Below, in pieces: positions 1-37,372 of a stretch of DNA of 51,233 bases (its first letter is position 1; each line of letters opens with the position of its first letter). The notes under the pieces were generated by a model. It was not told where the DNA came from and did no database searches. It saw nothing but the letters and a program-made list of their open reading frames with translations. The translations under genes and the position numbers were made by a program. This DNA comes from an uncultured Burkholderiales bacterium (lineage in GTDB: Bacteria; Pseudomonadota; Gammaproteobacteria; Burkholderiales; Burkholderiaceae_C): assembly GCA_903842945.1 (NCBI GenBank), contig CAIMNS010000069.1:1-51233 (forward strand), read 5' to 3'.

Positions 1-311
1 AGGCCCGTGGTCTCGATGATCAGGAGTGGAAATTTATGAACACGCCTCTCAAGCCTTGCCCAAAACAGGTCCTCCAAGGCTTGAGACAGGCCTGGTAAAC
101 CGGTGCAACACACACACGCATTGGCGACCAAAGAAGCCGCTTCGGCGGCATGGGTGAGCAAGGCTTGATCGATGCCGACTTCGCCCAACTCATTGATGAT
201 GAGAGCTGCGTCTTTGAACTCAGGTTGATGGAGCCATTCTTTGAGCAACGTGGTTTTGCCACTGCCCAGAAAGCCAGTCAGGAGATAAATAGGAATTTTT
301 TGAAGGGTCAT
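1..311 (-). CDS. CobW/G3E-family GTPase, N-terminal part (truncated by window edge; not in the ORF track)
   Basis: Minus-strand translation from ATG at 311: MTLQKIPIYLLTGFLGSGKTTLLKEWLHQPEFKDAALIINELGEVGIDQALL...NACVCCTGLPG...; Walker A GFLGSGKTTLL and CxCC motif typical of CobW/G3E GTPases; open to the window edge. Confidence 0.9.
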   Translation of the reverse strand, partial: MTLQKIPIYLLTGFLGSGKTTLLKEWLHQPEFKDAALIINELGEVGIDQALLTHAAEAASLVANACVCCTGLPGLSQALEDLFWARLERRVHKFPLLIIETTG

Positions 312-409: not shown

Positions 410-880
410 GTGGAGAGAATCACCATTTCACTGGACCCGGAGTTGGCAGGTATTTTGGATGACATGTCTGCTCAGCATGGCTACGCATCCAGATCTGAAG
501 CGGTCAGAGATCTGATTCGGGGTTGGCACTCACAAGAGGCCATGAAGCGCAACAAGAGTGAGCATTGCGTGGCTTATTTGGGCTACGTCTACGACCAAAG
601 GGACCGAACGCTGTCTGAAAGAATCTCCCACCTTCAGCACGAGCATCACCATTTGACGGTTTCAAACATGCAGTTGCACATGGACCACAACAATTGTTTG
701 GAGGTGGCCTTTCTAAGGGGGCCTAGCCGAGAGGTCAGGTCTTTGGCTGAGCGCGTGATGTCTCAAAGAGGCGTGCGCCATGGATCGGTGCATTTCGTGC
801 CGGTGACGGTTCAAGGGAACATTGAGGGGCATGACCATGCGAACGGGATGCCACACATGCATCTAAAGCCAAGTATTTAA
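410..880 (+). CDS. nikR: NikR-type nickel-responsive ribbon-helix-helix regulator
   Basis: GTG start after AAAGAGGAG; RHH N-terminus MERITISLDPELAGILDDMSAQHGYASRSEAVRDLIR, ACT-like C-terminus with His/Cys ligand-type pattern (HEHHHLTVSNMQLHMDHNNCLEVAFLRG). Confidence 0.92.
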   Translation: MERITISLDPELAGILDDMSAQHGYASRSEAVRDLIRGWHSQEAMKRNKSEHCVAYLGYVYDQRDRTLSERISHLQHEHHHLTVSNMQLHMDHNNCLEVAFLRGPSREVRSLAERVMSQRGVRHGSVHFVPVTVQGNIEGHDHANGMPHMHLKPSI

Positions 881-932: not shown

Positions 933-1748
933 TCAGGTCAAGGACTTGGACAAATAGGGTGCTTTGGCGCGGTGTTTGTATTTGTCGAACACAAACAAGA
1001 GCAGCAGCGTCAAGGTCAAAGCAATGCCAATCCAAGCGCCATTGGCGGACCAGAACTCATCGATTTGTGCGTCTAAATTTTTAATCAAACCAAAGAGCAC
1101 GACCAACAAGGACAACAAGGCGATCACCCCACTCATCACGCGAGCCGTGTGTTTGGCCAATTGTTCGCTTTGTTTGACAATCCAATGCACAATGAATCCA
1201 TTGAGCGAGTCGGCCAGCATCATCCCTGAACCAAAGCTCAAAGCAAAGAGCAAGATCATCTCAAAGCCACCCAATTCATGACCTTTGGCGGCCATGAGCC
1301 CAGCCTGGCCCAAGGTGTCCAAGGAGAGTGCAAATGCAAAGCCAACCCCCATGGGGTGCGCAAAGGGGCCAAGACTTTTCAAAATGAAACCTTGAAACAA
1401 ACCGCGTGGGTGCGTGTGGCTTGCGCCAAAAAAACAGTATCTGAAATTGGTGAACGCCAACCACAACAAAAAAATGCTGGAGATCCAAAGACCCAACTGG
1501 TCCAACCACAAGGGCATTTCAATGCCTTGCCAATAAAAAATCATGGTCGCGAGCAAGACCGTCAAACTGTGACCACTGGCAAACTGAAACCCTGTGAGCC
1601 TTGCTGACCAATAATTTTGTGCCTTGTAACGCATGCGCGTGAGGCCATCGACCGCAGCAATGTGGTCCGGATCTAGACCATGCCTAAAGCCCAGAGCCAG
1701 CAGCAGCCCAAGCGTTGGCCAAAGAGAGGAGGAGATCAAATCTTGCAT
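933..1748 (-). CDS. Nickel/cobalt transporter (NiCoT-like membrane protein)
   Basis: RHGLDPDHIAAVDGLTRMRY matches the HxxxxDH signature region; multiple hydrophobic helices; next to nikR. Confidence 0.85.
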   Translation of the reverse strand: MQDLISSSLWPTLGLLLALGFRHGLDPDHIAAVDGLTRMRYKAQNYWSARLTGFQFASGHSLTVLLATMIFYWQGIEMPLWLDQLGLWISSIFLLWLAFTNFRYCFFGASHTHPRGLFQGFILKSLGPFAHPMGVGFAFALSLDTLGQAGLMAAKGHELGGFEMILLFALSFGSGMMLADSLNGFIVHWIVKQSEQLAKHTARVMSGVIALLSLLVVLFGLIKNLDAQIDEFWSANGAWIGIALTLTLLLLFVFDKYKHRAKAPYLSKSLT

Positions 1749-1879: not shown

Positions 1880-3736
1880 TTATGTGTGAGTGTGCTCATC
1901 GTGCCCAGGTCCATGTCCATGATCGTGCCCATGCCCATGGTGATGGTGGTGGCCTTTTTGTCCATGCTCATGGCCCTCAGCGTGAGAATGGGTGTGTGGG
2001 GCATGCCGATGCATGTGCCCATCCCCATGTTCATGCCAGTCGTTCATGTCGGATTTACCATGTGCGTGAGGGTCTTCGTTGAACACCAAGGACTTGACGG
2101 TCACTGGAACGGTGTAAGAGGGCATTCTGATGCGGCCCAAATCAATGAAATCAAAGCCCCAAAGGGTCACGCCATCGATGACCAAGATGTCGCTTTGAAC
2201 GCGCGCGTCTTCTTGGAAAATATGTCCCAAATTGTGCGCAATGTCGCCATCCGTCACAATGAACAAGGGTCGCTTTTGAGCAAGCGTTTGAGGAATGGCG
2301 CTGATGATGCCGTTGGCCAATTGAGACAGACGTGCATAGGAAGGTGCACCCAACCATCTGAGAGAAATGGCCACATCTTGCGCCCCTTCTTGCAGGTCAT
2401 GCCGGGTAAAGGATTGCTTCAAATCTTTGGCAACGACCAGCGCGTCGATGTGTTCGCCAAGCACCGTGGGCAAGGGGATCACTTGCAGGTTTTTTCTGGG
2501 TAAAAGCAGTCCAGGCTCAGAAATAAAGGTGGTGTTGCCACTCAATTGAACGCTGTACTCGGAGGCGCCAAGCACAGTTGCACGGATGCATTCACCCGCC
2601 GGTAACAGCTCCGTGCCAATCGCACCCGCATCCAATTGTTGGCGGATGGCTTGACCAAACAATTTACCCAAATCGCCAAAATCTCGAACTTCGCGTTGGT
2701 AGACATACTCACCAACACCGCCAGAGAACATGATGCCATCAAGGGTTCCAAAACTTTCAATAGGATCGGTCAAGTACAAATGCTCAAGATCGACTTTGGT
2801 GAAGGTTTGGTTCAGGACACGAATGAGTGCTTGTGCCATCCAGTGAGCAACTTGAGCCAGATCTTGGCGTTGCACTTTCGTCCCCAAGTGCCAATCAAAG
2901 CCAGCTTGTTGTGCTAGGTACTGACCGGCAGGATCTAGTCGAGTGATCACGTTGGCCTCGTCCACAACAAGAAGCCGCCCTCCCAAGTGGACGGCAGCTG
3001 TGGCGACCAATTCACCATTTTGAACGAGTCCAAGTTTGGTGGTGCCACCGCCGATGTCCACGTTCAAAATGCGGTGTTTTTGATCATAGGATCGCTTGGC
3101 CGCACCCGAGCCATAAACGGCCAGCATGGACTCCATGTGGTGTCCAGCTGCAGCACAAACAAATTCTCCCCCTTGCTCGGCCAAGACCTCTGCGATCGAT
3201 TCACTGTTCTCACGCCTTAGAGCTTCGCCGGTCAAAATCACGGCCCCCGCATCCACATCATCGGGGTGCAAGCCAGCGGCTTGATAGGCTCGGTCAATGA
3301 TGGCGCCAAGGGCTTTGGCGTCCATGGTGGTATCGTTCAAATAGGGTGTCAGAGAAATGGGCGATTGATAAAGAGGCTGACGGTCCACCACGGTATAGCG
3401 AGAAGAGAGGTCTTCAGCGATGCGTCGCAGGTGAATTTTTGAAAAGACGACTTGAGTGCCCGAAGAACCCACGTCAATGCCCACGCTGTGCAAGATCACA
3501 TTGTCTTGTCTCCACAAGGACTCCTGTGAAGGATCGTCGCCAGTGAAATTGTCGTGGTCGTGGTCGTGATCTGCATCCCCATCGTGGGTGTGAGCGTAGT
3601 CCTCACCGTATTGATGATCTTGGATGGTGTGGCGAGCAGAGGTGTCGCTCACCTTGGGTTGATCTGAGTTGCTCATGGTAGGGGAATGTGAATCAAGGGT
3701 GTGATGAGGAGGTGGTAAGGACGTGAACCATTTCAA
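1880..3736 (-). CDS. EutA-like ethanolamine ammonia-lyase reactivating factor family protein with His-rich N- and C-terminal extensions
   Basis: ASKHA-type ATPase core (VGIDVGSSGTQVVFSK; LNVDIGGGTTKLGLVQNG; GIMFSGGVGEYVY) characteristic of EutA; C-terminus HEHGDGHMHRHAPHTHSHAEGHEHGQKGHHHHHGHGHDHGHGPGHDEHTHT; N-terminus HTHDGDADHDHDHDN. Confidence 0.85.
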   Translation of the reverse strand: MKWFTSLPPPHHTLDSHSPTMSNSDQPKVSDTSARHTIQDHQYGEDYAHTHDGDADHDHDHDNFTGDDPSQESLWRQDNVILHSVGIDVGSSGTQVVFSKIHLRRIAEDLSSRYTVVDRQPLYQSPISLTPYLNDTTMDAKALGAIIDRAYQAAGLHPDDVDAGAVILTGEALRRENSESIAEVLAEQGGEFVCAAAGHHMESMLAVYGSGAAKRSYDQKHRILNVDIGGGTTKLGLVQNGELVATAAVHLGGRLLVVDEANVITRLDPAGQYLAQQAGFDWHLGTKVQRQDLAQVAHWMAQALIRVLNQTFTKVDLEHLYLTDPIESFGTLDGIMFSGGVGEYVYQREVRDFGDLGKLFGQAIRQQLDAGAIGTELLPAGECIRATVLGASEYSVQLSGNTTFISEPGLLLPRKNLQVIPLPTVLGEHIDALVVAKDLKQSFTRHDLQEGAQDVAISLRWLGAPSYARLSQLANGIISAIPQTLAQKRPLFIVTDGDIAHNLGHIFQEDARVQSDILVIDGVTLWGFDFIDLGRIRMPSYTVPVTVKSLVFNEDPHAHGKSDMNDWHEHGDGHMHRHAPHTHSHAEGHEHGQKGHHHHHGHGHDHGHGPGHDEHTHT

Positions 3737-3768: not shown

Positions 3769-4779
3769 TCAATAAAATTGATCAAAATGGACCTGGTTCA
3801 TGGGGACTTTGTGCTCCACCAAAAGTTTGAGCATGGCCTGGGCCATGAGTGGGGGACCAGCAAAATAAATTTCCATGTTGCCCAAGTCATGGGCGTGAAA
3901 TTTTTGAACCACTTCGTGGACAAAACCTCGTTCACAGTCAGGGGTCAAAACCTCATCAACTGATGCATTGGAGACGACCGGTGTGTAGTGTCCCATGCTG
4001 GCCCAAAGCGGCAGTTCATTGAGCATGTCTAGGCCGCAGATATCACGAGCCTCGCGGGCACCGTAGATGAAGTGAATGTTCTGAAAAGGACGTGTGTGCA
4101 GAGAAAGTGCGCCCCTGGCCAAAGAAACCATGGGCGCTAAACCTGAGCCACCGCCGACCAGCAAGATGTCCCTGGGGGCATCCTCGCGCAAATAGGCCAT
4201 GCCATAAGGGCCGTCAATGCGAACCTTTTCACCCAAGGGCATGGAAAAGAGTTTTTGGGTACCGAGGCCTCCTGGGGTCAAGCGCACTTGAAAATCAAGG
4301 CGTTGGCGGCTCCCACCCCCTTGGCTCATCGAGTAGGCCCTTGGACCCGGTACGTCTGAAAAATGGATCAACGCGTACTGTCCTGAAGCGAAGCTCAAGG
4401 CAGCGTCACACTCAAAAGAGAACTCATGCAAGTCATGGGTGATGGCTCTCTTGTGGGTCAGGCTTGCAGTGGTTTGAACGGGCAGGTGAACTGGTGCGTA
4501 GTGTTCCATTTCTCGCACCTTGATGCGTGCGTTGGAGCAAGCTTGGGCTTGGCATCCTAGCCAGCGGTTTTTGAGGCGATCTTTGTCGCTGAGTCCAGGT
4601 GCATCGCTCCAGTTGCTTTGAAGCTCACCTTCAAGAAGCTCAAATTTGCAGTTGCCGCAAGAGCCTACATTGCACTCATATGGAAAACCAATGCCTGCTC
4701 GAAGTGCTGCTCTTAAAAGGGTGTCACCTGGAGCGCAGGGGAAATGTTTTGTCGAGCCGTCGATTTGAATCTGAAACAT
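3769..4779 (-). CDS. 2Fe-2S ferredoxin / FAD-NAD(P) oxidoreductase (oxygenase reductase component type)
   Basis: Plant-type 2Fe-2S motif CNVGSCGNCKFELLEG...C; FAD RAYSMSQ; NAD GGGSGLAPMVSLAR; C-terminal FDQFY. Confidence 0.88.
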   Translation of the reverse strand: MFQIQIDGSTKHFPCAPGDTLLRAALRAGIGFPYECNVGSCGNCKFELLEGELQSNWSDAPGLSDKDRLKNRWLGCQAQACSNARIKVREMEHYAPVHLPVQTTASLTHKRAITHDLHEFSFECDAALSFASGQYALIHFSDVPGPRAYSMSQGGGSRQRLDFQVRLTPGGLGTQKLFSMPLGEKVRIDGPYGMAYLREDAPRDILLVGGGSGLAPMVSLARGALSLHTRPFQNIHFIYGAREARDICGLDMLNELPLWASMGHYTPVVSNASVDEVLTPDCERGFVHEVVQKFHAHDLGNMEIYFAGPPLMAQAMLKLLVEHKVPMNQVHFDQFY

Positions 4780-4866: not shown

Positions 4867-5643
4867 TCATGGGCGATAACCCAGTTGGGTGGAGATGTCT
4901 TGCGCGGTTTGGAGCACCAACGGGGCCAAGGCTCTTAACTTTTTGAGCGTGAGTCGTTGACTGGGGCCACCGACACCAACAGAAGCCACCACTTGTGAGC
5001 TGATGTCTCTCAAGGGGGCAGAAATGCCTCTCATGCCGATTTCAGACTCCTCATCATCGATGGCGTATCCATTGTGACGAACTTGTTGAAAAATATGAAC
5101 CAGTTCATTCACATCACAGCATGTATTGGGGGTCCTGGGTTTGAGCTCTGAGTGCAGCACTTTTTGAATCAATTCATTGCTGCTGAACGATAAAATGGCT
5201 CGGCCCTCGCTGGTACAAAATGAGGGTTTGAGCGTCCCGATGTAATTTTTCATGCGGATGGCTTGGCTGCTTTCCAAGTTGTAGAGATAAATGATGTTGG
5301 TTTCATTCATCACCGCCAAGTGAATGGTCTCGCCCGTTCTTTCTCGAAGCACATTCAAGAACGGTTGAGCCATGTTGGAGACATCAAGGCGTCTTCTGAC
5401 CAAGGCGCCCATGATAAAGAGATTGATGCCCAAGCGGTATCGACCATTTTCCGGGTTTTGTTCCAACAAGCCTTCGCTCAGCAAGGTCACGGCCAGTCGG
5501 TGAGCTGTGCTTTTCGCCAAGCTAAGCCTTTTGGCAAGGCTGCTGATGCCAATTTCAGGTTCAATCTCTGAGAAGCATTTGAGAACACGAATGGAGGCAG
5601 CAACTGAAGACAGGCGGGCGCTTTTGGAGGGTTGTCGTTCCAT
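4867..5643 (-). CDS. IclR-family transcriptional regulator (ORF track start 5676; internal ATG at 5643 also plausible)
   Basis: Winged HTH (SSVAASIRVLKCFSEIEPEIGISSLAKRLSLAKSTAHRLAVTLLSEGLLEQNPENGRYRLG) plus IclR effector domain (GYAIDDEESEIGMRGISAPLRD). Confidence 0.9.
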   Translation of the reverse strand: MERQPSKSARLSSVAASIRVLKCFSEIEPEIGISSLAKRLSLAKSTAHRLAVTLLSEGLLEQNPENGRYRLGINLFIMGALVRRRLDVSNMAQPFLNVLRERTGETIHLAVMNETNIIYLYNLESSQAIRMKNYIGTLKPSFCTSEGRAILSFSSNELIQKVLHSELKPRTPNTCCDVNELVHIFQQVRHNGYAIDDEESEIGMRGISAPLRDISSQVVASVGVGGPSQRLTLKKLRALAPLVLQTAQDISTQLGYRP

Positions 5644-5695
5644 GATTGAACTTCTTAACAAGTTTAAAAAGATCATACATCATTTTCCTTTATGA

Positions 5696-5708
5696 GGAAC
5701 AGTGTTCC
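5696..5708. promoter_or_regulatory. Palindrome GGAACAgTGTTCC upstream of iclR-family gene; candidate operator
   Basis: Perfect 6-bp arms around one base, in the divergent regulator/operon intergenic region. Confidence 0.4.
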
Positions 5709-5869
5709 CTATAAAAGAAAGAGATGAAATCATGAAAGGACTGGCGTTGGCTTTTATTTGATGGATAAAATTTGTGAAATTGATAAAATGTAATGATAAG
5801 TTTTACAGGGAAAACCCGCAATGCATTTGCTTGACACTTAAAAGAGATTCGAGCCTAATATTGTTTGTG

Positions 5870-5900
5870 CCTTTATGCGGATCTGTGTCCCGCATAAAGG
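5870..5900. promoter_or_regulatory. Inverted repeat CCTTTATGCGG-N9-CCGCATAAAGG in operon leader
   Basis: 11-bp perfect arms (5870-5880 / 5890-5900); it overlaps the ORF-track start at 5875, arguing that the true permease start is downstream. Confidence 0.5.
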
Positions 5901-5968
5901 AACCATAAAGCGAGTCCCCAATCGATGGAGGCCCTCGCCTCAAGCCTTGTTTCATCGGGTGATTCCTG

Positions 5969-5992
5969 CAATAGACGTTCGTCTGTCTATTG
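5969..5992. promoter_or_regulatory. Inverted repeat CAATAGAC-N8-GTCTATTG just upstream of the likely permease start
   Basis: 8-bp perfect arms directly read; GTG start candidate at 6016 follows GGAG. Confidence 0.4.
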
Positions 5993-6015
5993 ATTCTTTC
6001 GTTGGAGAAACATCA

Positions 6016-7749
6016 GTGCAAAGCCCTGTTGCGGCGGAACCTCACCGTCCTGTGAATTTGAGTTTTGATCCCAAGTGGTTGGTCATTGGGGTCTGTTTGA
6101 TCGTGGTTGGCTTTTTGGCCTTGGTGCCTTTTGGCTTCATGATTTGGCAAAGTTTTTTGACGCCTGAGACGGCGGACGTACCCGCCAAAGTCACTTTTTC
6201 AAACTACATCACGGCTTACACGGATGCAGAGACGATCACAACTTTGTTCAACTCGATGCAGTTTGCTTTAGGGGGTTCTCTTCTGGCTTTTGTCATCGGG
6301 ACAGCGCTGGCCTGGATGAACGAGAGGACGAACACCCCGATGCGACGACTCTTTTACGCGTTGTCGATCATTCCCCTGATCATTCCAAGCATTTTGTTCA
6401 CCATTGCGTGGATCATGTTGGCAAGTCCCAAAATTGGTTTGATCAACATGGCCTTGCAATCGTGGTTCGGCTTGGAGTCGCCCCCCTTTAACATTTACTC
6501 CATGTGGGGAATGATTTGGGTCGATGGACTGCATTATTCACCCATGGCCTTTTTGCTCATGTCTGCGGCCTTTAGGGCCATGGATCCATCTCTTGAAGAG
6601 TCTGCGGTGATGAGCGGATCAAGTATTTTAAGGACCCTTTGGCGCATCACTTTGAGGCTGGCCATTCCCGCCATTGTGGCCACTGTTTTGACGCTTTTTG
6701 TGCGCGCCATTGAGTCCTTTGAGGTGCCGGCTTTGTTGGGTTTGCCCGCTGGCATTCAAGTCTTCACATCAGCCATTTATCAAGCAATCCATCAGTTCCC
6801 AAGTCAATTGGGCCTGGCCTCTGCTTATTCTGTGGTGTTGTTGTTGATCACGTCAGTGGGTATTTATATCCAAGCCAAAATATCATCGACGGGCGGCAAG
6901 TATGTGACCGTCACAGGAAAGGGATTTCGCCCGAGAAGCATTGATCTGGGTCCTTGGAGGTATTTGACGACAGGCATCTTCTTGCTTTATTTTTTGTTGA
7001 TTGTTCTCTTGCCCTTTTTGGTGTTGCTGTGGTCCTCTTTGCAAAAGTTTTATGCGCCTCCTTCGGCCGAAGCCTTGAAGCACTTGACCTTGGATGGTTA
7101 CCGCTATGTGTTGGGTTCCAGCAATATTCTGCACGCGCTCTTGAACAGCTTATGGATGGCGGTCGCATGTGCCACCATCGTGATGCTGTTGTCAGCGGTC
7201 GTGTGTTGGGTGGTTGTGAAGACGAAGATCCCAGGGCGTTGGTTGTTGGACAATTTGGCCTCCTTGCCCATGGTCTTTCCTGGCTTGGTCTTGGGCGTGT
7301 CGATCATGATTTTTTATCTGACCTTTGACATTGGCATCTACGGCACATTTTGGATTATTTTGCTTGCCTACATCACGCGTTTCATGCCGTATGGCATGCG
7401 CTACAACACCACATCCATGATCCAAATCCATAAAGATTTAGAAGATTCGGCGGCCATGAGTGGTGCGGGGTGGTTGACGGTTTTTACGCGGGTGATTTTG
7501 CCTTTGCTCAAGCCTGGCATGGTTGCCGGTTGGATCTACGTCATGATTGTTTCCGTTCGTGAGTTGTCAAGTTCCATTTTGCTCTACAGTCCAGGCAATG
7601 AAGTGATCTCCATCGTGATTTGGGAGTTATGGGAAAACGGGCAATATGTAGAACTGTCTGCCTTGAGCGTGATGTTCATTATGTTGCTCTTGGTCTTGGT
7701 GATGATTGCGCAACTCATTGGCAAACGTTTTGGTGTGAAAGAAGCGTGA
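6016..7749 (+). CDS. Two-domain ABC transporter permease, Fe3+/FbpB-like (ORF open from 5875)
   Basis: Two binding-protein-dependent permease halves with EAA-type loops (LEESAVMSGSSILRTLWRITLRLAIPAI; LEDSAAMSGAGWLTVFTRVILPLLKPG); GTTGGAGAAACATCAGTG start context. Confidence 0.9.
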   Translation: MQSPVAAEPHRPVNLSFDPKWLVIGVCLIVVGFLALVPFGFMIWQSFLTPETADVPAKVTFSNYITAYTDAETITTLFNSMQFALGGSLLAFVIGTALAWMNERTNTPMRRLFYALSIIPLIIPSILFTIAWIMLASPKIGLINMALQSWFGLESPPFNIYSMWGMIWVDGLHYSPMAFLLMSAAFRAMDPSLEESAVMSGSSILRTLWRITLRLAIPAIVATVLTLFVRAIESFEVPALLGLPAGIQVFTSAIYQAIHQFPSQLGLASAYSVVLLLITSVGIYIQAKISSTGGKYVTVTGKGFRPRSIDLGPWRYLTTGIFLLYFLLIVLLPFLVLLWSSLQKFYAPPSAEALKHLTLDGYRYVLGSSNILHALLNSLWMAVACATIVMLLSAVVCWVVVKTKIPGRWLLDNLASLPMVFPGLVLGVSIMIFYLTFDIGIYGTFWIILLAYITRFMPYGMRYNTTSMIQIHKDLEDSAAMSGAGWLTVFTRVILPLLKPGMVAGWIYVMIVSVRELSSSILLYSPGNEVISIVIWELWENGQYVELSALSVMFIMLLLVLVMIAQLIGKRFGVKEA

Positions 7750-7813: not shown

Positions 7814-8920
7814 GTGTTAAATGTTACCGGTCTATTCACACAATACGTGAGCGACAAAGGCGTGGTGGTGCAAGCTGCCAAGGATGTTTCCTTTGAAGTG
7901 CCAAAGGGCAAACTTTTTACCCTTTTAGGTCCTAGTGGCTGTGGAAAAACCACGACGCTCAGATCCATTGCGGGTTTAGAAAAGCCTACCCAAGGCTTGA
8001 TAGAGGTTTACGGTAAGGCGGTTTACAGCTCTGCCAAAGGCGTCTTCACCCCACCGAATCAGCGCGGATTTGGTATGGTGTTTCAGTCCTATGCGATTTG
8101 GCCTCACATGACGGTGTTTCAAAATGCCAGCTTCCCCATGGAAGTAGGGGCCAAGAAGTTCACGACGGCGCAAATCAAAGAGCGTGTCATGCGCGTCCTG
8201 GAATCTGTGGAGCTGGCCCAATACCACGACAGGGACGCGACTCGCTTGTCAGGCGGTCAGCAGCAACGTTTGGCCTTGGCTCGCGCTTTGGTGATGGAGC
8301 CGCAACTCTTGTTGCTCGATGAGCCTTTGTCCAATTTGGATGCAAAACTCAGAGAAAAAATGCGTTTTGAATTGAAAAAGATTCAACGAGAACTCAACAT
8401 CACCACGATCTACGTGACGCACGATCAATCCGAGGCCTTGGCGCTTTCGCACGAAATTGCCGTGATGTCGGCGGGTCGAATCGTTCAACGCGGAACGCCT
8501 AGAGAAATTTACGAAAAACCGATTGATAAATTTGTGGCCGATTTCGTGGGTGCCATCAATTTCATTGATGCAACCGTGAAGCACTTGGACCTTCAGCAGC
8601 ACATCATGGTCTTGGAGTCCGAGGTCGGTTTGATTCAATTGCCCATCCAAGAAGACTTCAAAGCCGGCGATGCTGTGCAAGTGTGCGTGCGGCCAGAAAA
8701 TGTCCACTTGAGTGACGCCCCCCCCCATATCGATCACTTGAATCGCTATGAAGGCACCGTAGACCAAAAAATATTTTTAGGCGAAGTTTTGGATTTCCAA
8801 GTCAAGATTCGCGAAAAATTGATTTTGTCACGCGTTCATCCCACACAACTGACACCCGTAGGGCACCCCATCCACGTGTATTTTGATCCACGAGGGTGTG
8901 TGGTTTTCAAAGTGCAATAA
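7814..8920 (+). CDS. ABC transporter ATP-binding protein (FbpC/PotA-like)
   Basis: Walker A GPSGCGKTTTL, signature RLSGGQQQRLALARAL, Walker B LLLLDEPLSNLD, C-terminal TOBE-like region; GTG start. Confidence 0.95.
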   Translation: MLNVTGLFTQYVSDKGVVVQAAKDVSFEVPKGKLFTLLGPSGCGKTTTLRSIAGLEKPTQGLIEVYGKAVYSSAKGVFTPPNQRGFGMVFQSYAIWPHMTVFQNASFPMEVGAKKFTTAQIKERVMRVLESVELAQYHDRDATRLSGGQQQRLALARALVMEPQLLLLDEPLSNLDAKLREKMRFELKKIQRELNITTIYVTHDQSEALALSHEIAVMSAGRIVQRGTPREIYEKPIDKFVADFVGAINFIDATVKHLDLQQHIMVLESEVGLIQLPIQEDFKAGDAVQVCVRPENVHLSDAPPHIDHLNRYEGTVDQKIFLGEVLDFQVKIREKLILSRVHPTQLTPVGHPIHVYFDPRGCVVFKVQ

Positions 8921-8959: not shown

Positions 8960-9562
8960 ATGACGATTAAAACGATTGAAACGAATTCGAAGGATTACGT
9001 TCCCAACGAATCCCACTACCACAGCAAGAAGGATCGTACTTTTGTACGCGCCATTGCAGGTCCTTACAATTTAAAAGATGAGTTGACCCGCTTGCGTGCC
9101 ATGCCACGCGTTAGAAAAGGCAAGGACATCAAATTCAACGATGGTCCTCAAGCCTTTAGTCGCCACTATGTAGAGCCCAAAGACGGCATCACCCAGACCT
9201 TTCACATGCACTTGGAAGAGTATGGTCCTGGTGCACGTTCGCAAAAACATGGACACGTGAACGAGGCTGCTTTTTATATCTTAGATGGCGTGGGCTATGA
9301 AGTCCATGACGGTATTCGTTATGACTGGAAGGCGGGGGATGTGGCGATTGTTCACAACAACTGCGTTCATCAGCACTTCAATGCCGATTCGGTCAAACCA
9401 GCTCGCGCGCTGGTGATCAAAACCAAGCCGATGTACATGTTCATGAACATGCTCTTTCAACAGCAAGTTGAGCCTCGTCCTAGTGAGCCTGCAGCCGGTG
9501 GCGAAGGGTTCAAAGCGAGAAACGATGAGCAAGACTTTAATCACCCAGAGGGAGGATACTAA
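8960..9562 (+). CDS. Cupin-domain protein 1
   Basis: Cupin motifs GARSQKHGHVNEAAFYILDGVGYEVHDG and WKAGDVAIVHNNCVHQHFN. Confidence 0.85.
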   Translation: MTIKTIETNSKDYVPNESHYHSKKDRTFVRAIAGPYNLKDELTRLRAMPRVRKGKDIKFNDGPQAFSRHYVEPKDGITQTFHMHLEEYGPGARSQKHGHVNEAAFYILDGVGYEVHDGIRYDWKAGDVAIVHNNCVHQHFNADSVKPARALVIKTKPMYMFMNMLFQQQVEPRPSEPAAGGEGFKARNDEQDFNHPEGGY

Positions 9563-9563
9563 A

Positions 9564-10163
9564 ATGGCATGGGATGAATCAAAAACGTGGATGGGTGGGG
9601 ATGCGCAAGGCGCTTTTTATCAGGGCTTGCTGGACGATGCCGCTCAGGCACCCGTTAGAAATGCAAAGAGAAAAAAAGTAGTTCACCCAGAAGAAATGCC
9701 TTGGGAAATGGCTCGCCAAGGTTTGTTGAAGCATTTGCTCAATGAGCAAATGAACACGCGCATGGAAACGGTTGATGCGTACATGCAACTCATCCCACCT
9801 GGATCGCATTCTGGCAAGCATCGCCACTTGGCCGAGGAGTGTGTCTACGTCCTCGAGGGCAAGGGCTATGATTTGCATCAGGACTGTGATGTCGAAATCA
9901 CAGACACCTACCATTGGAAACCTGTGGATGAAATCAAGCGCTATGAGTGGGAAGCTGGGGATGTGATCTATATTCCACCCAATACGATCCATCAGCACTT
10001 CAATGCAGACCCTTTAAAACCAGTTCGATTGATCTCCTCGACCAACCGCATCTTCAAGTACTGTGGTTTGAATGACATGGAGCAATTGGAAAATGCGCCT
10101 GAGTACGATCCATCCATCATACTGAATGCGAAAAACATTCTTCAATATTTGAAGAACAAGTGA
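9564..10163 (+). CDS. Cupin-domain protein 2 (ORF open from 9468; ATG at 9564 preferred)
   Basis: GSHSGKHRHLAEECVYVLEGKGYDLHQD and WEAGDVIYIPPNTIHQHFN; GGAGGATACTAAAATG start context. Confidence 0.85.
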   Translation: MAWDESKTWMGGDAQGAFYQGLLDDAAQAPVRNAKRKKVVHPEEMPWEMARQGLLKHLLNEQMNTRMETVDAYMQLIPPGSHSGKHRHLAEECVYVLEGKGYDLHQDCDVEITDTYHWKPVDEIKRYEWEAGDVIYIPPNTIHQHFNADPLKPVRLISSTNRIFKYCGLNDMEQLENAPEYDPSIILNAKNILQYLKNK

Positions 10164-10209: not shown

Positions 10210-11325
10210 ATGAGCAAAGACGCCCTGGTTTCCGATGATTTAGCGCAAAAGTTTGCAACTGAAAAGGAGACACCGTATACCCGATGGGTCAAGTCCGAGG
10301 GGCTTGACATCATCAGCGCACACTATGTCAAAAACCTGAACACGGTTGACGTGAAACCTTGGGCCAGACGCGGTGGCAAAGGCGTGTTTATCAACCATGA
10401 GGCGTCTAGAACGTCCAATGATTGCTACGTGGTTGAAATCGCGCCAGGTCAGCAACTCGAGCCTCAGCGTCAACTCTTTGAAGAGATGATCTACGTGCTC
10501 TCAGGGCGAGGGTCGACAACGGTTTGGAACGATCAGGGTCACCGCATCACATTTGAATGGCAAGCCGGTGCGCTTTTCGCCATTCCCTTGAACTGCTCGC
10601 ACCAGCACTTCAATGGCTCGGGTAAAGATGCGACGAGGTTTGTGGCCGTGACGAATGGCCCGCCCGTGATCAACTTGTACGAAGATTTGGATTTTGTCTT
10701 CCATACTCAACATGATTTTGCCAATCGCTTCAATGGGGAACCTGATTACTTCAGTGGTCAAGGCGAACAAAAGGGCTTGTTGCTGGAGACAAACTTTGTA
10801 GCTGATGCGGTGAATTTACCCTTGATCAGCGCCAAGGAAAGAGGCGCTGGAGGCGGGCACATCCGCTTTAACATGGCGCGTGGTTCAATGAACAGCCACA
10901 TCTCCCAATTTCCAGTGGGAACCTACAAAAAGGCGCATTGTCATGGTCCTGGTGCACACGTGATCATCCTGAGCGGTGAGGGTTATAGTTTGATGTGGCC
11001 AGAGGGTGAAGAACCTAGGCAATACGATTGGGAAGTGGGCTCGATGATTGTGCCACCCAACATGTGGTTTCACCAGCATTTCAACACCGGTAAAACGCCT
11101 GCAAGGTATTTGGCTTTCAAGCATGAGGTGGTGTCGGTTCGAAATGCGCAAGGCGTGCCCAAGGCTTGGATCAGCCGTCGAATCGGAGGCGACCAAATTG
11201 ACTACGCCGATGAGAGCCAATTGGTCAGAGATCGTTTCACCCATGCCTTGTCCGCCCATGGTTTGACCCCAAAAATGGCGGAAGCCTACGAGACGGAGTT
11301 ATCAACTTTGCCTGCGCTTAAATAA
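10210..11325 (+). CDS. Bicupin protein (gentisate 1,2-dioxygenase-like fold)
   Basis: Two cupin cores: FEEMIYVLSGRGSTTVWND...FAIPLNCSHQHFN and GTYKKAHCHGPGAHVIILSGEGYSLMWPEGE...IVPPNMWFHQHFN. Confidence 0.82.
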   Translation: MSKDALVSDDLAQKFATEKETPYTRWVKSEGLDIISAHYVKNLNTVDVKPWARRGGKGVFINHEASRTSNDCYVVEIAPGQQLEPQRQLFEEMIYVLSGRGSTTVWNDQGHRITFEWQAGALFAIPLNCSHQHFNGSGKDATRFVAVTNGPPVINLYEDLDFVFHTQHDFANRFNGEPDYFSGQGEQKGLLLETNFVADAVNLPLISAKERGAGGGHIRFNMARGSMNSHISQFPVGTYKKAHCHGPGAHVIILSGEGYSLMWPEGEEPRQYDWEVGSMIVPPNMWFHQHFNTGKTPARYLAFKHEVVSVRNAQGVPKAWISRRIGGDQIDYADESQLVRDRFTHALSAHGLTPKMAEAYETELSTLPALK

Positions 11326-11543: not shown

Positions 11544-12653
11544 ATGAAAAACTTTGGCCTGAGTCGTCGCAACATTTTAAAAAGCGGATCTTACGTTCTG
11601 GGGGCCGCCTCTTTGCCTGTCGGTGTGATCACAGCAAATTGGACCCCTTCTGCCTTGGCTCAAAGTGATGCACAAAGCGCTTTACCAACGGGCTTGGCTT
11701 CAGCATTTTCTGGCGCCGAGCGGACCAACAAGCTCGTTGAGATGGCAAAAAAGGAAGGACCTGTATTGGTTTATTCTTCCATGCCGCAAGATGACATGGC
11801 TGCCTTGACCAGCGAGTTTGAAAAGAGGTACGGCTTAAAGACCAAGGTGTGGAGAGCGGGCTCAGAGAAAATTCTTCAGCGTGTGGTCCTAGAGGCCAAA
11901 TCCAATCGCCATGAAGTCGATGTGATTGATACCAATGGGCCGGAGATGGAGGCCATGCACAGAGAGCACATTCTTCAAGTGTGTAAATCACCCACCTTGT
12001 CTGAGTTGATCCCGCAAGCCATCCAACCACATAGAGAATGGATTGCTAGCCGATTGAATATCTTTACCTGTGCTTACAACACGCGCCAAATAAAAAAAGA
12101 AGACTTGCCCAAGACCTACAAAGACCTGCTGGACCCCAAATGGAAGGGAAAGATTGCGGTAGAGTCTGAAGACAACGATTGGTTGGCCGTTGTGGTCACC
12201 CAGATGGGCTATGAAAAGGGCGTGGCTCTTTTTAAAGAAATTGCCATTAAAAATGCGGTGACGGTTCGAAAAGGTCACACCTTGCTTGCCAATTTGGTGG
12301 CCTCTGGAGAGGTGCCCTTGGCATTGACCTTGTACAACTACAAGGTGGAGCAGATGAAAAATGCAGGTGCGCCGATGGACTGGTTTGCGCTAGACCCGAC
12401 CGTTGTGAGACCCAATGGCGTGGGTGTCAATAAAAATGCACCCCACCCCTATGCGGCCGTTTTGTTCCAAGATTTTATTTTAAGTGTGGGTCAAAGTATC
12501 TTAGGTAAACGAGACTTTATTCCCACCCACACCAAAGTGCCTTCCAGCTTGAACAAAATGCCTTTGACCTTTGCCGACCCTAAGATGACTTTGGACGACA
12601 ACCAAAAATGGTCTCGTCTTTATGAGGAAATCTTCAGTCGCAAAGGCGCTTGA
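11544..12653 (+). CDS. Extracellular solute-binding protein (Fe3+/FbpA-like) with Tat-type signal
   Basis: LSRRNILKSGSYVLGAASLPVG signal; PVLVYSSMPQDDMAALTSEFEKRYGLKTKVWRAGSEKILQRV typical of the family. Confidence 0.85.
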   Translation: MKNFGLSRRNILKSGSYVLGAASLPVGVITANWTPSALAQSDAQSALPTGLASAFSGAERTNKLVEMAKKEGPVLVYSSMPQDDMAALTSEFEKRYGLKTKVWRAGSEKILQRVVLEAKSNRHEVDVIDTNGPEMEAMHREHILQVCKSPTLSELIPQAIQPHREWIASRLNIFTCAYNTRQIKKEDLPKTYKDLLDPKWKGKIAVESEDNDWLAVVVTQMGYEKGVALFKEIAIKNAVTVRKGHTLLANLVASGEVPLALTLYNYKVEQMKNAGAPMDWFALDPTVVRPNGVGVNKNAPHPYAAVLFQDFILSVGQSILGKRDFIPTHTKVPSSLNKMPLTFADPKMTLDDNQKWSRLYEEIFSRKGA

Positions 12654-12739
12654 GTCCCCGCTTCAAATGTTTGGTTTTGAAATGGTTTTTGCCCCTCTCA
12701 AGGAATGATGTTTCTGAACACATACAGATGTTGACACCG

Positions 12740-13828
12740 ATGAAGCCTCGCCTATTTCTCACGCCCTTGAAAACACTTTTATGTGTTTTTGTATTGACTT
12801 TGGGCGCGTCCCTTTTAAAAGCCCAAACCGCATTGCCGTCCGTGCTCCATGCAGCCAGTTGGGAGGTCATCAAAACGCCATCTGCAGATCGTGTTCAAAA
12901 GCTAGTGAGCCTAGCCAAAGCAGAAGGTGGCACGGTTTCACTTTATACCTCTATTGCCGAAAAAGACTTGAAGGTCATCTTCGACCCATTTGAAAAAAAA
13001 TATGGGATCAAGGTTCTTGTTTGGAGGGCCAGTGGAGACTCTGTGATGACGAGAACCATCAACGAGGCCCGTGCCAAGCGTTACAGCGTCGATATTTTTC
13101 ATGCTGGTGCTGTTGAGCTTGAAGCTTTGTCTCGCGAGCATTTGATTCAACGCGTGGCGTCTCCCCACTTTGCAGATTTGATGGAGGGCAGTTTGCCGAC
13201 CCACAAAGAGTGGGCAGCTACTCTTTTTTCTCTTTGGGTTCAGGCCTACAACACCCAAGCGTTCAAAGAATCCGAGTTGCCCAAAACCTATGCCGACTTG
13301 TTGGACCCCAGGTTCAAAGGCAAATTGGGCTATGAGATAGAAAACGTGGATTGGTTTGTGACCGTCATCAAGTCCATGGGAGAAGCCAAGGGCATACAAT
13401 TTTTCAGAGACTTGAGCAAAACCAATGGCATTTCTGTCAGGAAAGGGCACACCAATCTCACCGGCATGGTGGCCTCAGGTGAGGTCCCAATGGCGCTCAC
13501 CGTTTACAACTACATGCCTGAGGCCTTCAAGAAAAAAGGCGCGCCTATCGACCATGTCGTGATCCAACCTGCCGTGGCCAGAGCCAATGGTGTGGCGGTC
13601 TTGAAAAACGCGCCTCATCCTGCGAGTGCTGCCTTGTTGATGGACTATTTGCTGAGTGAAGGTCAAATTGCAAGCTCGAGTTTGGATTATTTTCCAACTA
13701 ACCTTAAAGTGCCTACGTCCCTTAGAAACATCAAGATGATGGTGGTGGACCCTGCCGAGAGCTTGGATCAGCGAGACAAGTGGAAGAAGTTGTACGACGA
13801 AATTATTTTAAAAGGGAGCCGACCATGA
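12740..13828 (+). CDS. Second extracellular solute-binding protein, paralogous to the preceding gene (ORF open from 12650)
   Basis: Signal-like MKPRLFLTPLKTLLCVFVLTLGASLLKAQ; GTVSLYTSIAEKDLKVIFDPFEKKYGIKVLVWRASGDSVMTR parallels the upstream SBP. Confidence 0.82.
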   Translation: MKPRLFLTPLKTLLCVFVLTLGASLLKAQTALPSVLHAASWEVIKTPSADRVQKLVSLAKAEGGTVSLYTSIAEKDLKVIFDPFEKKYGIKVLVWRASGDSVMTRTINEARAKRYSVDIFHAGAVELEALSREHLIQRVASPHFADLMEGSLPTHKEWAATLFSLWVQAYNTQAFKESELPKTYADLLDPRFKGKLGYEIENVDWFVTVIKSMGEAKGIQFFRDLSKTNGISVRKGHTNLTGMVASGEVPMALTVYNYMPEAFKKKGAPIDHVVIQPAVARANGVAVLKNAPHPASAALLMDYLLSEGQIASSSLDYFPTNLKVPTSLRNIKMMVVDPAESLDQRDKWKKLYDEIILKGSRP

Positions 13829-15093
13829 GCGCAGGCGTTTTAAAGGATCCAACAGGTCCATTGCCAGAGCCTAAAATTCCATACCGCGACATGGGGCTCA
13901 TCACCATCGGGCATGCATTGACGCATTGGTACCCTGCAACTTTTTTCATGCTGCTGCCTTTGATCGGGCAAGAGTTGGGTCTGAGTTACAGCCAAATTGG
14001 TTTCATCATGACCTGTCAATATGCTGCTGGGGCGCTTTCCAATGTGCCCGGTGGCATGCTCGTTGACATCTGGGGAAAGAAGGGCCAATTGATGGCCCTG
14101 TCACTGTTTTGGGTAGGATTTCCTTATTTTCTCATGGGTTTTACCACCACGTATTGGATGCTTTTGGCGTGCGCCATGTTGGTGGGCATGGGCAACAATT
14201 TATGGCACCCCACGGCCATTCCGCTGCTTGGAAAAATGTTTCCCGATCGAAAAGGTTTAGCGCTTTCTCTTCACGGCATGGGAGGCAACATGGGCGATGC
14301 ACTCGCGCCATTGGCAGTTGGCGCACTGCTCAGCGTGTTGTCTTGGCACCAAATTGTGATGCTCAATGTGGTGCCAGGAACGGTGATGTCCATTTTGATT
14401 TTGTATTTTTTGGGCACTTTGAACTTTGCCGTCAAGGGTCCCAAAGAGGTCCCAGAAACTCAGAAAGTCAATGCAATGGAGGTGAAGGGGCGTCAGCAAA
14501 GCTTTCAAAGTTATTTGAACGGCTTGAAATTGCTCATCCAAACGCCGGGCTTGTTCATGCTGATCATGAGTTCATCGTTTAGATCCATGACGCAAGCCAC
14601 CTTGCTCACCTTCTTGCCACTTTACTTGGCCAAAGAGATGCAATACAACGTCTTTTGGGTGGGTGCCGTGATGGCCATTCTTCAAGTGGCTGGGTTCGTA
14701 GCAGCGCCCATAGCTGGACACTTGTCGGATCAGCTTGGCAGAAGAACTTTGCTCATGTCTTGTTTTGCTGTGAGTGGTGTAGTGATCTTGCTCATGACAT
14801 TCGCGGGGGGCTCTGCACTGTTTGTGGTTTTGATTGCTTTGCTTGGCTTTTTTCTTTACGCTGCAAGACCCGTCATGCAGGCCTGGCTTTTGGAGTCTGC
14901 GCCAAGCAACATGGGGGGCACGAGCATTGGTTTGATGTTTGGCATGCAGTCGGCGGCTCAAGCCTTGGCCCCCATCATTGGAGGCTTGATCGCTGATAGT
15001 TTTGGACTGATGGCCGCCTTTTACTTTTTGGCCGCAACAATTTTATTGGCCAACTTGATGGTCTTTTTGATACCCGAGCCCAAGCTCCAGTAA
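13825..15093 (+). CDS. MFS transporter
   Basis: Twelve-helix-type hydrophobic profile; MFS loop GHLSDQLGRR; ATGA overlap with the preceding stop. Confidence 0.88.
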   Translation: MSAGVLKDPTGPLPEPKIPYRDMGLITIGHALTHWYPATFFMLLPLIGQELGLSYSQIGFIMTCQYAAGALSNVPGGMLVDIWGKKGQLMALSLFWVGFPYFLMGFTTTYWMLLACAMLVGMGNNLWHPTAIPLLGKMFPDRKGLALSLHGMGGNMGDALAPLAVGALLSVLSWHQIVMLNVVPGTVMSILILYFLGTLNFAVKGPKEVPETQKVNAMEVKGRQQSFQSYLNGLKLLIQTPGLFMLIMSSSFRSMTQATLLTFLPLYLAKEMQYNVFWVGAVMAILQVAGFVAAPIAGHLSDQLGRRTLLMSCFAVSGVVILLMTFAGGSALFVVLIALLGFFLYAARPVMQAWLLESAPSNMGGTSIGLMFGMQSAAQALAPIIGGLIADSFGLMAAFYFLAATILLANLMVFLIPEPKLQ

Positions 15094-22167: not shown

Positions 22168-22515
22168 GGATGCATTTTAAAGTGTTAAATTGAGCGTTGT
22201 TTTAAAGCATATTTTGAAGAAAAGCATCTTTAAATACATCATGTTCATGATTTTTTGTTTTAATGAGGCCTAATTTTGCCATGATGCAATGTGTTTGGAT
22301 GAAATGAATCGAAGTTAAAAGTGCTCAGGTTCATGCGATTGACTTCAGAGTATGTTGATCCCTTGATTCTTTTTGGTCTTTAAATTTATTTGGGCTAAAG
22401 GCAAGAGGTTGACCTAGGAAATCTTGTTGGAGTATTTTTTGTCAAATAGGCTTGACGATTCAACCGAACCTTGGTCTTGAGAGACGGTCCCCCTACTTTT
22501 TAACAGTTGCGGTCA

Positions 22516-23625
22516 ATGCAAGAAATAAGTTGGTCAACTGCGGATGCTCGGCGCTTAAAAAAGCTCAGGCTTGAGGCTGGGCATGACCTTGTCCAATTCT
22601 CTAAGCTCAGTGCAGTGTCAGTGGCTCAAATCAGCCAGCTTGAAGAGTCAGGAAATTCACTTTTCTACAGCGAGAGGATTAAATATTCTGTTGGCAAGCG
22701 ATTGACGCTTTTGTTGCTCAAAGGCCAAAACGCTCGTGAAAATGGCATGCCTTTGGTGGATGAAAAGACCAGAAATAGCCATGTATCTTCTCATTCAGAA
22801 ATCAACGCGATTGCAGAAATGAGTCGTCGAAATTTAGATGCCAGCCCAATTAGGGATTTCTTCAATATTTTTGCTTACCGGCTGAGCCGTCTGGTCTTAT
22901 CAAAGTATGTGATGTCTTCGATTGGCATGGTGTTGCTGATGCTCGGTGTTTGGTTTTATGAGCGCCATACTGAAGACGATGTGTTGACTTCTGAATTGAA
23001 TGCACAACCCAAGCCTAAGCATGAAGTTTTGGCGAGTCTCTCCAGCAACTGGTTGGTTCATTGGCTTAGCCCATCGGCTCCTGAGCATCCCAAGTCGGCC
23101 CCAGAGAGTTCACAAGTCGTTAAGAAAACCCTGGTCACGACCAATCCGGCAGACAAAGTCCTGGCTCCAAGTGATCAGCTAGGCCGCGAGCTTTTAAACC
23201 CCCAAGCTTCAAGTTCTAACAGCGTGATGGCAAGCAACTCGCCCGAGATCAACCCTTCAAGCGTTTTGTCTGGAACGTCACTCAGCCCTATCATCACTGA
23301 AAACGCCAAAACGCCTGTCGACAGGACCAATGAGTGTGTTTTTACTGCTGAAGGGCCAGAAATTGTGCCGACGATGGCCTATAAACCCTCCAATTATGTT
23401 TATGTGGAGGCGCTTTCAGATGCCGTCATTTGCCTAGAGGACAGTCAAAAAAAGATCCATCGACTCAGTTTACAGGCGGGCGCTGCACAATCCGTCATGG
23501 GTTCTTCCCCATGGAAGCTCAGTCTGAAGGCCGCTCAGCAGGTGAGGGTGTTTTTTCAAGGCCAAAGGATGCAACTACCTGACGCCAACAATCAGACCAT
23601 TACCCTGATGGAGTACAGACCTTGA
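22516..23625 (+). CDS. RodZ-like protein 1 (N-terminal HTH, single TM, Ser/Pro-rich linker, C-terminal domain); ORF open from 22507
   Basis: HTH ARRLKKLRLEAGHDLVQFSKLSAVSVAQISQLEESGNSLFYSERIKYSVGKRL; TM VMSSIGMVLLMLGVWF; C-terminal IHRLSLQAGAAQSVMGSSPWKLSLKAAQQVRVFFQGQRMQLP. Confidence 0.7.
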   Translation: MQEISWSTADARRLKKLRLEAGHDLVQFSKLSAVSVAQISQLEESGNSLFYSERIKYSVGKRLTLLLLKGQNARENGMPLVDEKTRNSHVSSHSEINAIAEMSRRNLDASPIRDFFNIFAYRLSRLVLSKYVMSSIGMVLLMLGVWFYERHTEDDVLTSELNAQPKPKHEVLASLSSNWLVHWLSPSAPEHPKSAPESSQVVKKTLVTTNPADKVLAPSDQLGRELLNPQASSSNSVMASNSPEINPSSVLSGTSLSPIITENAKTPVDRTNECVFTAEGPEIVPTMAYKPSNYVYVEALSDAVICLEDSQKKIHRLSLQAGAAQSVMGSSPWKLSLKAAQQVRVFFQGQRMQLPDANNQTITLMEYRP

Positions 23626-23855
23626 TGGAGAGCTGGCGGTCAAGTTTGAGCTTGCAAGGTCGATTCCATTAAAAGCAATTCGAGTGTAGTTGGACATTTC
23701 AAAACTAGGGTTAACCCTATATTCTTAATGAATTTAGTTCTAAAGGATTCAAAAATGTCATATCTAGAAAAATCTAATCCCAAAGTTTAGGATTTTGTCA
23801 TTCCAAAATTACTTAAATTGCCTAAAATGATCTTCCCTTGTTAAAAAAGTGATTC

Positions 23856-24785
23856 ATGCAACTCATGTGGTTGTCCGGTCCTACCGGGCGCATTAAAACT
23901 ATATCCATCACCTCTGCAACGATCATTCGTGCAGCGTTGGGCTTGGCTATTTTTTTAGTGATCATGGGTTTTTTATTGAACTTGCTTGGATTGAGGATTG
24001 CCGTTGAGCACTCCCCGGAATTGGCCAGAAGCTTAGGTGGCGTCACCACCGAATCTGAGCAAATTCGCATGGAATCGATTTACAGAGAAAAGTTAGATCG
24101 AATGAATGTGGATTTGCAAGGCACGATTCGAGAGCTCAAGCAACTGGAGTCCATTAAAAACAAGTTCATGGAGATCGCCTCACCTCCTGGGTTCAAAGAA
24201 AAGGGAACCCAAAAAACAGACAGTTTGGGAGGCCCTTTTGTACCTTTGGATCTGAAGGGTTCGTTTTTTCGTCAGCCTCTTGATGTAGCATTTAAAACAG
24301 CCGAGCAAGATGTTGATCGCTTAAAAACCGTGGTCATGACCATGCAAACCCAATGGACGGATCAATTGAAATGGCTTCGAGCCTTGCCTTTGGGTATTCC
24401 AGTTGGTGGTGACTTTAGGTACACCAGCGGTTTTGGCATAAGAAACGATCCTTTTACAGGCCAGTTGGCCATGCATGAAGGGATTGATTTTTCTGCCGAA
24501 TCTGGCACGCCTGTCTTGGCCACTGCCGATGGTGTGGTGATCCGATCCGGTTGGGACCCCAGCTTTGGTAACGTCATTGAAGTGCGTCATGCCGAGGATT
24601 ACGTGACCAGATATGCTCATTTAAGAAAAAGAATTGTCATTGAGGGCGACCGCATTGAGCGAGGAACTCCCCTAGGACAGGTTGGCTCAACGGGGCGTTC
24701 AACGGGACCTCATTTGCATTATGAGATGTTTAGAAATGGGAGATTGATCAACCCCATTCAAATCATACCGATTACCCCAGGTTGA
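23856..24785 (+). CDS. M23-family metallopeptidase 1 (LytM domain), membrane anchored
   Basis: N-terminal TM; FGIRNDPFTGQLAMHEGIDFSAESGTPVLATADGVVIRSGWDPSFGNVIEVRHAEDYVTRYAHLRK...GSTGRSTGPHLHYEM. Confidence 0.95.
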   Translation: MQLMWLSGPTGRIKTISITSATIIRAALGLAIFLVIMGFLLNLLGLRIAVEHSPELARSLGGVTTESEQIRMESIYREKLDRMNVDLQGTIRELKQLESIKNKFMEIASPPGFKEKGTQKTDSLGGPFVPLDLKGSFFRQPLDVAFKTAEQDVDRLKTVVMTMQTQWTDQLKWLRALPLGIPVGGDFRYTSGFGIRNDPFTGQLAMHEGIDFSAESGTPVLATADGVVIRSGWDPSFGNVIEVRHAEDYVTRYAHLRKRIVIEGDRIERGTPLGQVGSTGRSTGPHLHYEMFRNGRLINPIQIIPITPG

Positions 24786-24811
24786 TCGCCTTTTTCACCG
24801 GAAAACACCGC

Positions 24812-25883: not shown

Positions 25884-25909
25884 TTTTTATTTATTGATCT
25901 AATTTACCC

Positions 25910-37371: not shown

Positions 37372-37372
37372 T

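Follow-up and report, generated by a model that had tools for sequence, protein, structure and literature searches.

EutA-like ATPases without a EutB partner form a separate clade encoded beside matching cupins

We found that EutA-like ATPases without a EutB partner form a clade of their own, comprising at least four subtypes (types 1, 1b, 2 and 3 here), each of which is encoded beside a matching cupin. Because this separate EutA branch sits beside cupins and co-occurs with a nickel sensor in one genus, repair or metal loading of cupins appears probable. In our analysis, the best explanation is that the EutA-likes would reactivate or metallate cupins as ATP-driven reactivases or metal-loading chaperones, with His-rich ends that buffer the metal, a reading to which we assign a probability of about 0.5. 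That the EutA-likes function with cupins in some manner is likely.

Results

The EutA-like gene and its neighbors

The window that we analyzed, a stretch of 51,233 nucleotides, is contig C69 of a draft genome from near Limnohabitans (G000; 3.22 Mb, 313 contigs, 97% complete). It carries the following features.

1 to 311, minus strand: truncated CobW/G3E GTPase, 69% identical to Limnohabitans CobW; the contig ends inside the gene (full-length homologue, PF02492)
410 to 880, plus strand: NikR nickel-responsive regulator (NF002815, 166 bits; cut-off, 83)
933 to 1748, minus strand: NiCoT-type Ni/Co permease (NicO) with the RHGLDPDH signature (HX4DH) (PF03824, 32.3 bits, barely above the Pfam cut-off)
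1880 to 3676, minus strand: EutA-like ASKHA ATPase, type 1, 598 amino acids from the ATG at 3676 (PF06277); a longer open reading frame with a TTG start runs to 3736
1883 to 2080, minus strand: C-terminal His-rich tail of that protein, residues 533 to 598, 24 His of 66, predicted to be disordered
3527 to 3676, minus strand: its N-terminal His/Asp segment, residues 1 to 50, 7 His (HTIQDHQYG..HTHDGDADHDHDHD), predicted to be disordered
3769 to 4779, minus strand: BenC-like 2Fe-2S/FAD/NAD(P)H reductase (FdR), upstream of and co-directional with the EutA-like gene (PF00111, PF00970, PF00175)
4867 to 5676, minus strand: IclR-family regulator (PF01614, PF09339)
5689 to 5716, no strand: conserved palindrome in the IclR-permease gap (TTTATGAGGAACAGTGTTCCCTATAAAA; GGAAC-N3-GTTCC), a candidate IclR operator (footprint over 11 loci)
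5875 to 7749, plus strand: fused ABC permease (PF00528, twice)
7814 to 8920, plus strand: ABC ATPase (open reading frame; homologue within 12 kb in 56 of 86 type 1 loci)
8960 to 9562, plus strand: CupA, monocupin with an HGHVNE metal motif (PF07883); adjoins type 1b EutA elsewhere
9468 to 10163, plus strand: CupB, monocupin open reading frame with an HRHLAEE motif (match to 3bu7, E of 2e-7); the true start is probably further in
10210 to 11325, plus strand: CupC, bicupin and presumed client of the type 1 EutA (PF07883, PF00190; AlphaFold2 model pLDDT, 84); metal ligands of its C-terminal cupin, H243, H245, H250 and H288/H290
11544 to 12653, plus strand: AfuA-type solute-binding protein 1 (PF13343)
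12650 to 13828, plus strand: solute-binding protein 2 (open reading frame; homologue conserved in the clusters)
13780 to 15093, plus strand: MFS transporter, end of the cupin operon (PF07690)

The minus-strand genes thus run from IclR through the BenC-like reductase and the EutA-like protein to the NiCoT permease, with NikR and the truncated CobW gene beyond, while the plus-strand series, divergent from IclR, runs from the ABC permease and ATPase through CupA, CupB, CupC and the two solute-binding proteins to the MFS transporter. An earlier note, made from the sequence alone, had named four of these neighbors. Profile scores uphold three of them, namely NikR (166 bits), the NiCoT permease (32 bits) and the reductase (three Pfam domains), and the fourth, CobW, is borne out by 69% identity to the Limnohabitans protein but is present only as a fragment cut by the contig end. 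The reductase lies within 12 kb in 33 of 86 type 1 loci. Elsewhere in the window, as read by eye, positions 22507 to 28676 hold two tandem-looking sets of genes for an HTH/membrane protein, an M23-like peptidase and a bactofilin-like protein. Positions 35222 to 49912, again by eye, form another region of catabolic appearance: several Bug-type binding proteins are encoded there, along with a gentisate-dioxygenase-like cupin (40318 to 41286), an aldolase/decarboxylase-like protein and a flavin hydroxylase-like protein.

An intact ASKHA core with His-rich ends

The minus-strand open reading frame from 1880 to 3736 matched the Pfam EutA profile (PF06277) with 386.6 bits over positions 3 to 475 of 475, in agreement with the EutA reading of the ASKHA core in the earlier note. 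The TTG start at 3736 is probably 20 codons too early; we judged the ATG at 3676 to be the likelier start because congeners start at the aligned ATG. For none of the four NCBIfam EutA equivalogs did its score reach the cut-off (322.8 versus 598, 248.4 versus 769, 218.6 versus 952 and 197 versus 799). The protein also gave a weak match to PF01869 (BcrAD_BadFG), and no G3E GTPase or UreE domain was found in it. All three motifs of ASKHA ATPases (phosphate-1, phosphate-2 and adenosine) are intact, and the ATP-site residues G66, D68, G70 and S71, D207, I208, G209, G210 and T212, and S318, G319 and G320 are invariant in the alignment. The AlphaFold2 model has a confident core whose PDB neighbors are ASKHA proteins, with 9gai and 1hux as the top fold matches; our search of solved structures found no EutA structure in the PDB.

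Both ends of the protein are rich in histidine, as the earlier note had described: there are 24 His in the last 66 residues, an enrichment with a binomial P of ~8e-22 at 2.5% His, and 7 in the first 50. AlphaFold2 predicted disorder for nearly all of residues 1 to 48 and 530 to 598. The type 1 homologues with a readable tail number 81 and come from Alpha- and Betaproteobacteria and Acidobacteriota; five or more tail His (median, 17) are present in 79 of them, and the N-terminal motif H-x3-4-(D/E)H ... HxH ... DH(D/E)H in 80. The N-terminal motif is conserved by sequence and the C-terminal tail by composition only. Neither was present in any of 19 type 2 paralogues. The His/Asp segment is kept in type 1, with a shorter version in types 1b and 3, and the C-terminal tail occurs in type 1 only. 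As types 2, 3 and 1b have no such tail, metal buffering by the tail would not be a general property.

Two further observations concern His tails. In two Bordetella-like metagenome-assembled genomes (MAGs), the type 1 EutA gene continues in frame via the His tail into the ABC permease (L033:4660-8022 and L040:10034-13333), an apparent natural fusion or lost stop codon. Separately, a conserved protein of ~131 amino acids without a Pfam or NCBIfam match ends in a short His tail at seven loci (L050:19160-19552 and relatives).

A clade apart from EutBC-linked EutA

No eutB or eutC was seen in the window, as the earlier note had stated, and the genome-wide search likewise found no EutB in G000, despite its 97% completeness, or in 15 congeners. 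EutB was also missing from 12 of 14 other genomes carrying EutA-likes. In the two carriers that have it (G693 and G695), EutB and the EutA-like genes, full-length ones included, are on separate contigs. We therefore rejected classical ethanolamine use, which the note had also argued against.

EutA genes that do adjoin EutB were found in E. coli, Cetobacterium, Haladaptatus and one Burkholderiales genome (G290), and a divergent EutA of genome G164 has a EutB-like reading frame beside it, as read by eye. The phylogeny that the note had proposed placed types 1, 2 and 3 in one clade with a support of 96, apart from five EutBC-type EutA sequences: the four that are beside EutB and one from Acetoanaerobium, whose record is unannotated. 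A short motif follows the same division, reading AGP in the five EutBC-type sequences, AGH in types 1 and 3, AGD in type 2, and AGD (most) or AGH in type 1b. The type 3 protein of Phyllobacterium is annotated as an ethanolamine ammonia-lyase reactivating factor, with no EutB annotated nearby; by these data, that name is misleading for the EutA-like branch.

Each subtype is encoded beside its own cupin

The earlier note did not mention cupins, which are linked to the EutA-like family throughout, and so overlooked the likely client. Among 38 EutA-like genes or fragments from 14 genomes, 24 have a same-strand cupin or bicupin match less than 600 bp away (chance, ~0.1) and 35 have a cupin within 10 kb, counts that are non-independent through shared ancestry and that record linkage, not contact. 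Most of the genomes compared are draft MAGs. The partners differ by subtype. Type 2 goes with the bicupin CupC2, to which it is adjacent in 19 of the 20 loci having both, type 3 with CupC3, and type 1b with CupA plus CupB, with one exception (L152) among the five loci covered. Type 1 occurs in clusters that hold CupC, CupA and CupB, and a cupin is present in 35 of the 37 type 1 loci having 8 kb on both sides. Two type 1 loci have no cupin within ~10 kb; these come from Xanthobacteraceae MAGs (L036 and L046), retain full His ends and show no recognized ABC gene over the same distance.

Across 300 Burkholderiales genomes, the bicupin (E ≤ 1e-10) was found in four (G000, G150, G182 and G287), which are exactly those with type 1 or type 2 EutA-likes (in G182, the type 2 pair only). 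A phylum-wide search of 398 genomes returned the bicupin in G000 alone, too sparse a result for a further association test. The settings of the pairs vary: some are in ABC clusters, CupC2-EutA2 occurs with prolyl aminopeptidase, CupA-CupB-EutA1b lies away from the ABC cluster, and CupC3-EutA3 is found on a Phyllobacterium plasmid next to genes for tripartite tricarboxylate transporters. Some bicupins lack a EutA-like partner of their own, since bicupins outnumber EutA-likes in several genomes (in G687, 22 matching places versus 4). We found no report of an association of EutA with a cupin, a bicupin, nickel or Rieske proteins in the open literature that we searched.

Two other contigs of G000, C110 (2-2187; L001/L084) and C202 (3658-4320; L137), both break inside a CupC2 gene, and the genome therefore probably holds two very similar CupC2 copies. 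A search for EutA found a type 2 gene after the C110 copy only.

The nickel sensor tracks type 1 EutA in one genus

Among 37 genomes from this genus, those with NikR and those with type 1 EutA are exactly the same seven, and the two genes lie ~1 kb from each other in every one. These seven also encode further EutA-likes of 37 to 38% identity, which in G000 are type 2. Urease is present in G000 and in four congeners that have neither NikR nor type 1 EutA, and NiFe hydrogenase was not found; NikR thus goes with the island rather than with urease, and a urease or hydrogenase client is disfavored on the same grounds.

A NiCoT permease gene is present in 25 type 1 loci, variously arranged but always co-directional with type 1 EutA, and these loci are all betaproteobacterial as far as titles or kinship tell. 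In betaproteobacteria, metal import has thus either joined the cluster or stayed with it. Near alphaproteobacterial and acidobacterial homologues, NiCoT, NikR and CobW were not found, except for CobW-like matches of 33% in two, and the metal may therefore differ by lineage. The linkage to NikR and NiCoT proposed in the earlier note accordingly holds in betaproteobacteria (the 7 of 37 match and the 25 loci) but does not extend to the alphaproteobacterial and acidobacterial loci. NikR is a sensor of nickel rather than cobalt, and because of it nickel is the likeliest metal in betaproteobacteria; for this genus, we put forward nickel tentatively, at a little under an even chance. Of the metal- or corrinoid-dependent client envisaged earlier, the metal half stands, plausibly as nickel given the match of NikR to type 1 EutA across 37 genomes. 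The corrinoid half does not, no B12 enzyme having been recognized among the annotated conserved neighbors.

As for regulation, footprinting over up to 13 loci revealed no recognizable NikR site before the cupin operon or NiCoT. We thus set aside NikR control of the cupin operon, as the footprint gave instead the GGAAC-N3-GTTCC palindrome beside IclR.

The cupins and their pathway

CupB matched gentisate 1,2-dioxygenase (3bu7) by sequence (E of 2e-7), and the fold of the CupC model matched oxalate decarboxylase, MncA, gentisate dioxygenase (3bu7) and salicylate dioxygenase (3nl1). The cupins score far below the equivalog cut-offs. In the C-terminal cupin of CupC, H243, H245, H288 and H290 are invariant across 23 sequences. 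A further histidine, H250, occupies the usual Glu place and is kept in 17 of 18 CupC rows; CupC2 has Ala or Ile-shifted residues there, without His. A Ni/Co quercetinase works with a 3His/1Glu site and retains some activity with 4His (PMC4416304).

Genes that recur in the vicinity encode LigXa-type Rieske oxygenases, a Rieske-type ferredoxin and class II aldolase/decarboxylase-like proteins and suggest that aromatic or plant-derived acids are catabolized. The cupins would serve a catabolic cluster with ABC, MFS and Rieske-oxygenase genes, probably one for such acids. One pathway model that we considered, a riboflavin/lumichrome catabolic cluster containing TPP and Rieske genes, was rejected, as the enzymes described for it (P450, xanthine oxidase and two-subunit Rieske protein) do not match.

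Discussion

EutA uses ATP to remove damaged cofactor from ethanolamine ammonia-lyase (PMC5821096). By analogy to this prying of inactivated adenosylcobalamin from the enzyme, a EutA-like protein would spend ATP to open its cupin, which would release an oxidized or wrong metal and then take a new one. Type 1 could hold a supply of the replacement metal in its His-rich ends, a role that has been suggested for the tails of HypB (PMC7055735). For this genus, nickel (or cobalt) would be the likeliest metal; the NiCoT permease would import it under the control of NikR, and CobW and the ferredoxin reductase are putative helpers. XylT reduces the oxidized metal of catechol 2,3-dioxygenase, and the neighboring reductase could act on an oxidized cupin metal in the same manner. 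ASKHA reactivases are known for B12 and Fe-S enzymes. In its broadest form, this proposal adds to them a widespread branch with cupin clients, in which type 1 would carry nickel and repair cupins at the expense of ATP, and the cupins of type 1 would be Ni (or Co) enzymes in a catabolic pathway, as yet undescribed, of freshwater and soil bacteria; taken whole, it is doubtful.

The alternative that survives best, though we think it unlikely, is that the ASKHA protein works in the pathway as an enzyme in its own right. It would then be an ATP-dependent kinase or an activating subunit, comparable to the ASKHA subunits of HyuA or acetone carboxylase, and would phosphorylate the substrate, with the cupin catalyzing the next step and the His ends storing metal. 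The mostly catabolic clusters with transporters and decarboxylase/aldolase-like genes would suit such an enzyme, as would the several paralogues per genome, expected if each handled a different substrate. However, the proteins have the full-length EutA sequence, characterized EutA members act on an enzyme rather than a small molecule, and in the tree the outgroup sequences closest to them are those of EutBC-linked reactivases.

Genomic linkage could also reflect a shared pathway rather than contact between EutA-like and cupin, and contact is our inference. Another reading is that the two genes are only co-inherited in one catabolic island, without acting on each other. Conservation of the ABC/cupin/IclR/FdR cluster as a whole block is consistent with that, but the pairs persist in very different surroundings (with prolyl aminopeptidase, on the Phyllobacterium plasmid and outside the ABC cluster), making co-inheritance alone quite improbable. 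We give slightly less credence still to a nickel storage protein or chaperone for general nickel enzymes such as urease that lies beside cupins by chance: the HypB/UreE-like His-rich ends, the NikR, NiCoT and CobW neighbors and the urease of this genome are set against the four urease-bearing congeners without NikR or type 1 EutA, and against alphaproteobacterial and acidobacterial loci in which cupins, but no NiCoT or NikR, were found around the gene. Reactivation of an unrecognized B12 enzyme elsewhere, with NiCoT supplying cobalt and CobW supporting cobalamin, draws on the EutA family, the possibility of cobalt transport by NiCoT and the EutB of G693 and G695, but is the least probable of all given the absence of EutB from G000, 15 congeners and 12 of 14 carriers, its location on another contig in the remaining two, the annotated conserved neighbors, among which there is no B12 enzyme, and a regulator that senses nickel rather than cobalt.

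We therefore return to cupin reactivation or metal loading as the preferred reading. Should the cupin link prove functional, the EutA-likes would be the first ATP-driven proteins known to us that are dedicated to reactivating members of the cupin superfamily or loading them with metal, and would bear on how cupins are kept correctly metallated. A further prediction, from the NikR match, is that Limnohabitans-like freshwater bacteria have a catabolic function linked to nickel. Clusters are present in the named strains Limnohabitans sp. 15K, Pusillimonas noertemannii DSM 10065 and Massilia niastensis DSM 21313, which make the cupin-partner reading testable.

Several known systems resemble parts of this one. 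With the BadF/BcrA/HgdC activators of benzoyl-CoA reductase and 2-hydroxyacyl-CoA dehydratase, the EutA-like protein shares its top PDB folds (9gai and 1hux) and the weak PF01869 match, but it has no invariant Cys and no reductase or dehydratase partner was seen. Since none of the columns in 31 aligned EutA-like sequences is an invariant Cys, there is no sign of a bridging Fe-S cluster, and we rejected an Fe-S ASKHA activator on this basis. The gentisate and salicylate 1,2-dioxygenase bicupins are matched by CupB in sequence (3bu7) and by CupC in fold (3bu7 and 3nl1), but the cupins here fall far below the equivalog cut-offs and CupC has His in place of the motif Glu.

No ATPase partner of the Streptomyces quercetinase QueD is known to us. 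QueD is a precedent for a nickel-requiring cupin dioxygenase with a 3His/1Glu or 4His site (PMC4416304), although the cupins here are only distant relatives. Compared with HypB and UreE, the type 1 protein is an ASKHA ATPase and not a G3E GTPase or UreE fold, and no urease or hydrogenase link was found; like them, it has a terminal His-rich stretch of comparable size (the HypB of Bradyrhizobium japonicum contains 24 His, and each monomer binds 9 Ni; PMC7055735), and it adjoins nickel import and sensing genes. From EutA (PF06277) itself, the type 1 protein differs in having no EutB or EutC, in its separate clade and sub-equivalog scores, in AGH (AGD in type 2 and most of type 1b) versus AGP, and in its His-rich ends and cupin neighbors. 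No small subunit was recognized beside it, which is a point of likeness, and it shares with EutA the full-length profile match and the motifs of the ATP site.
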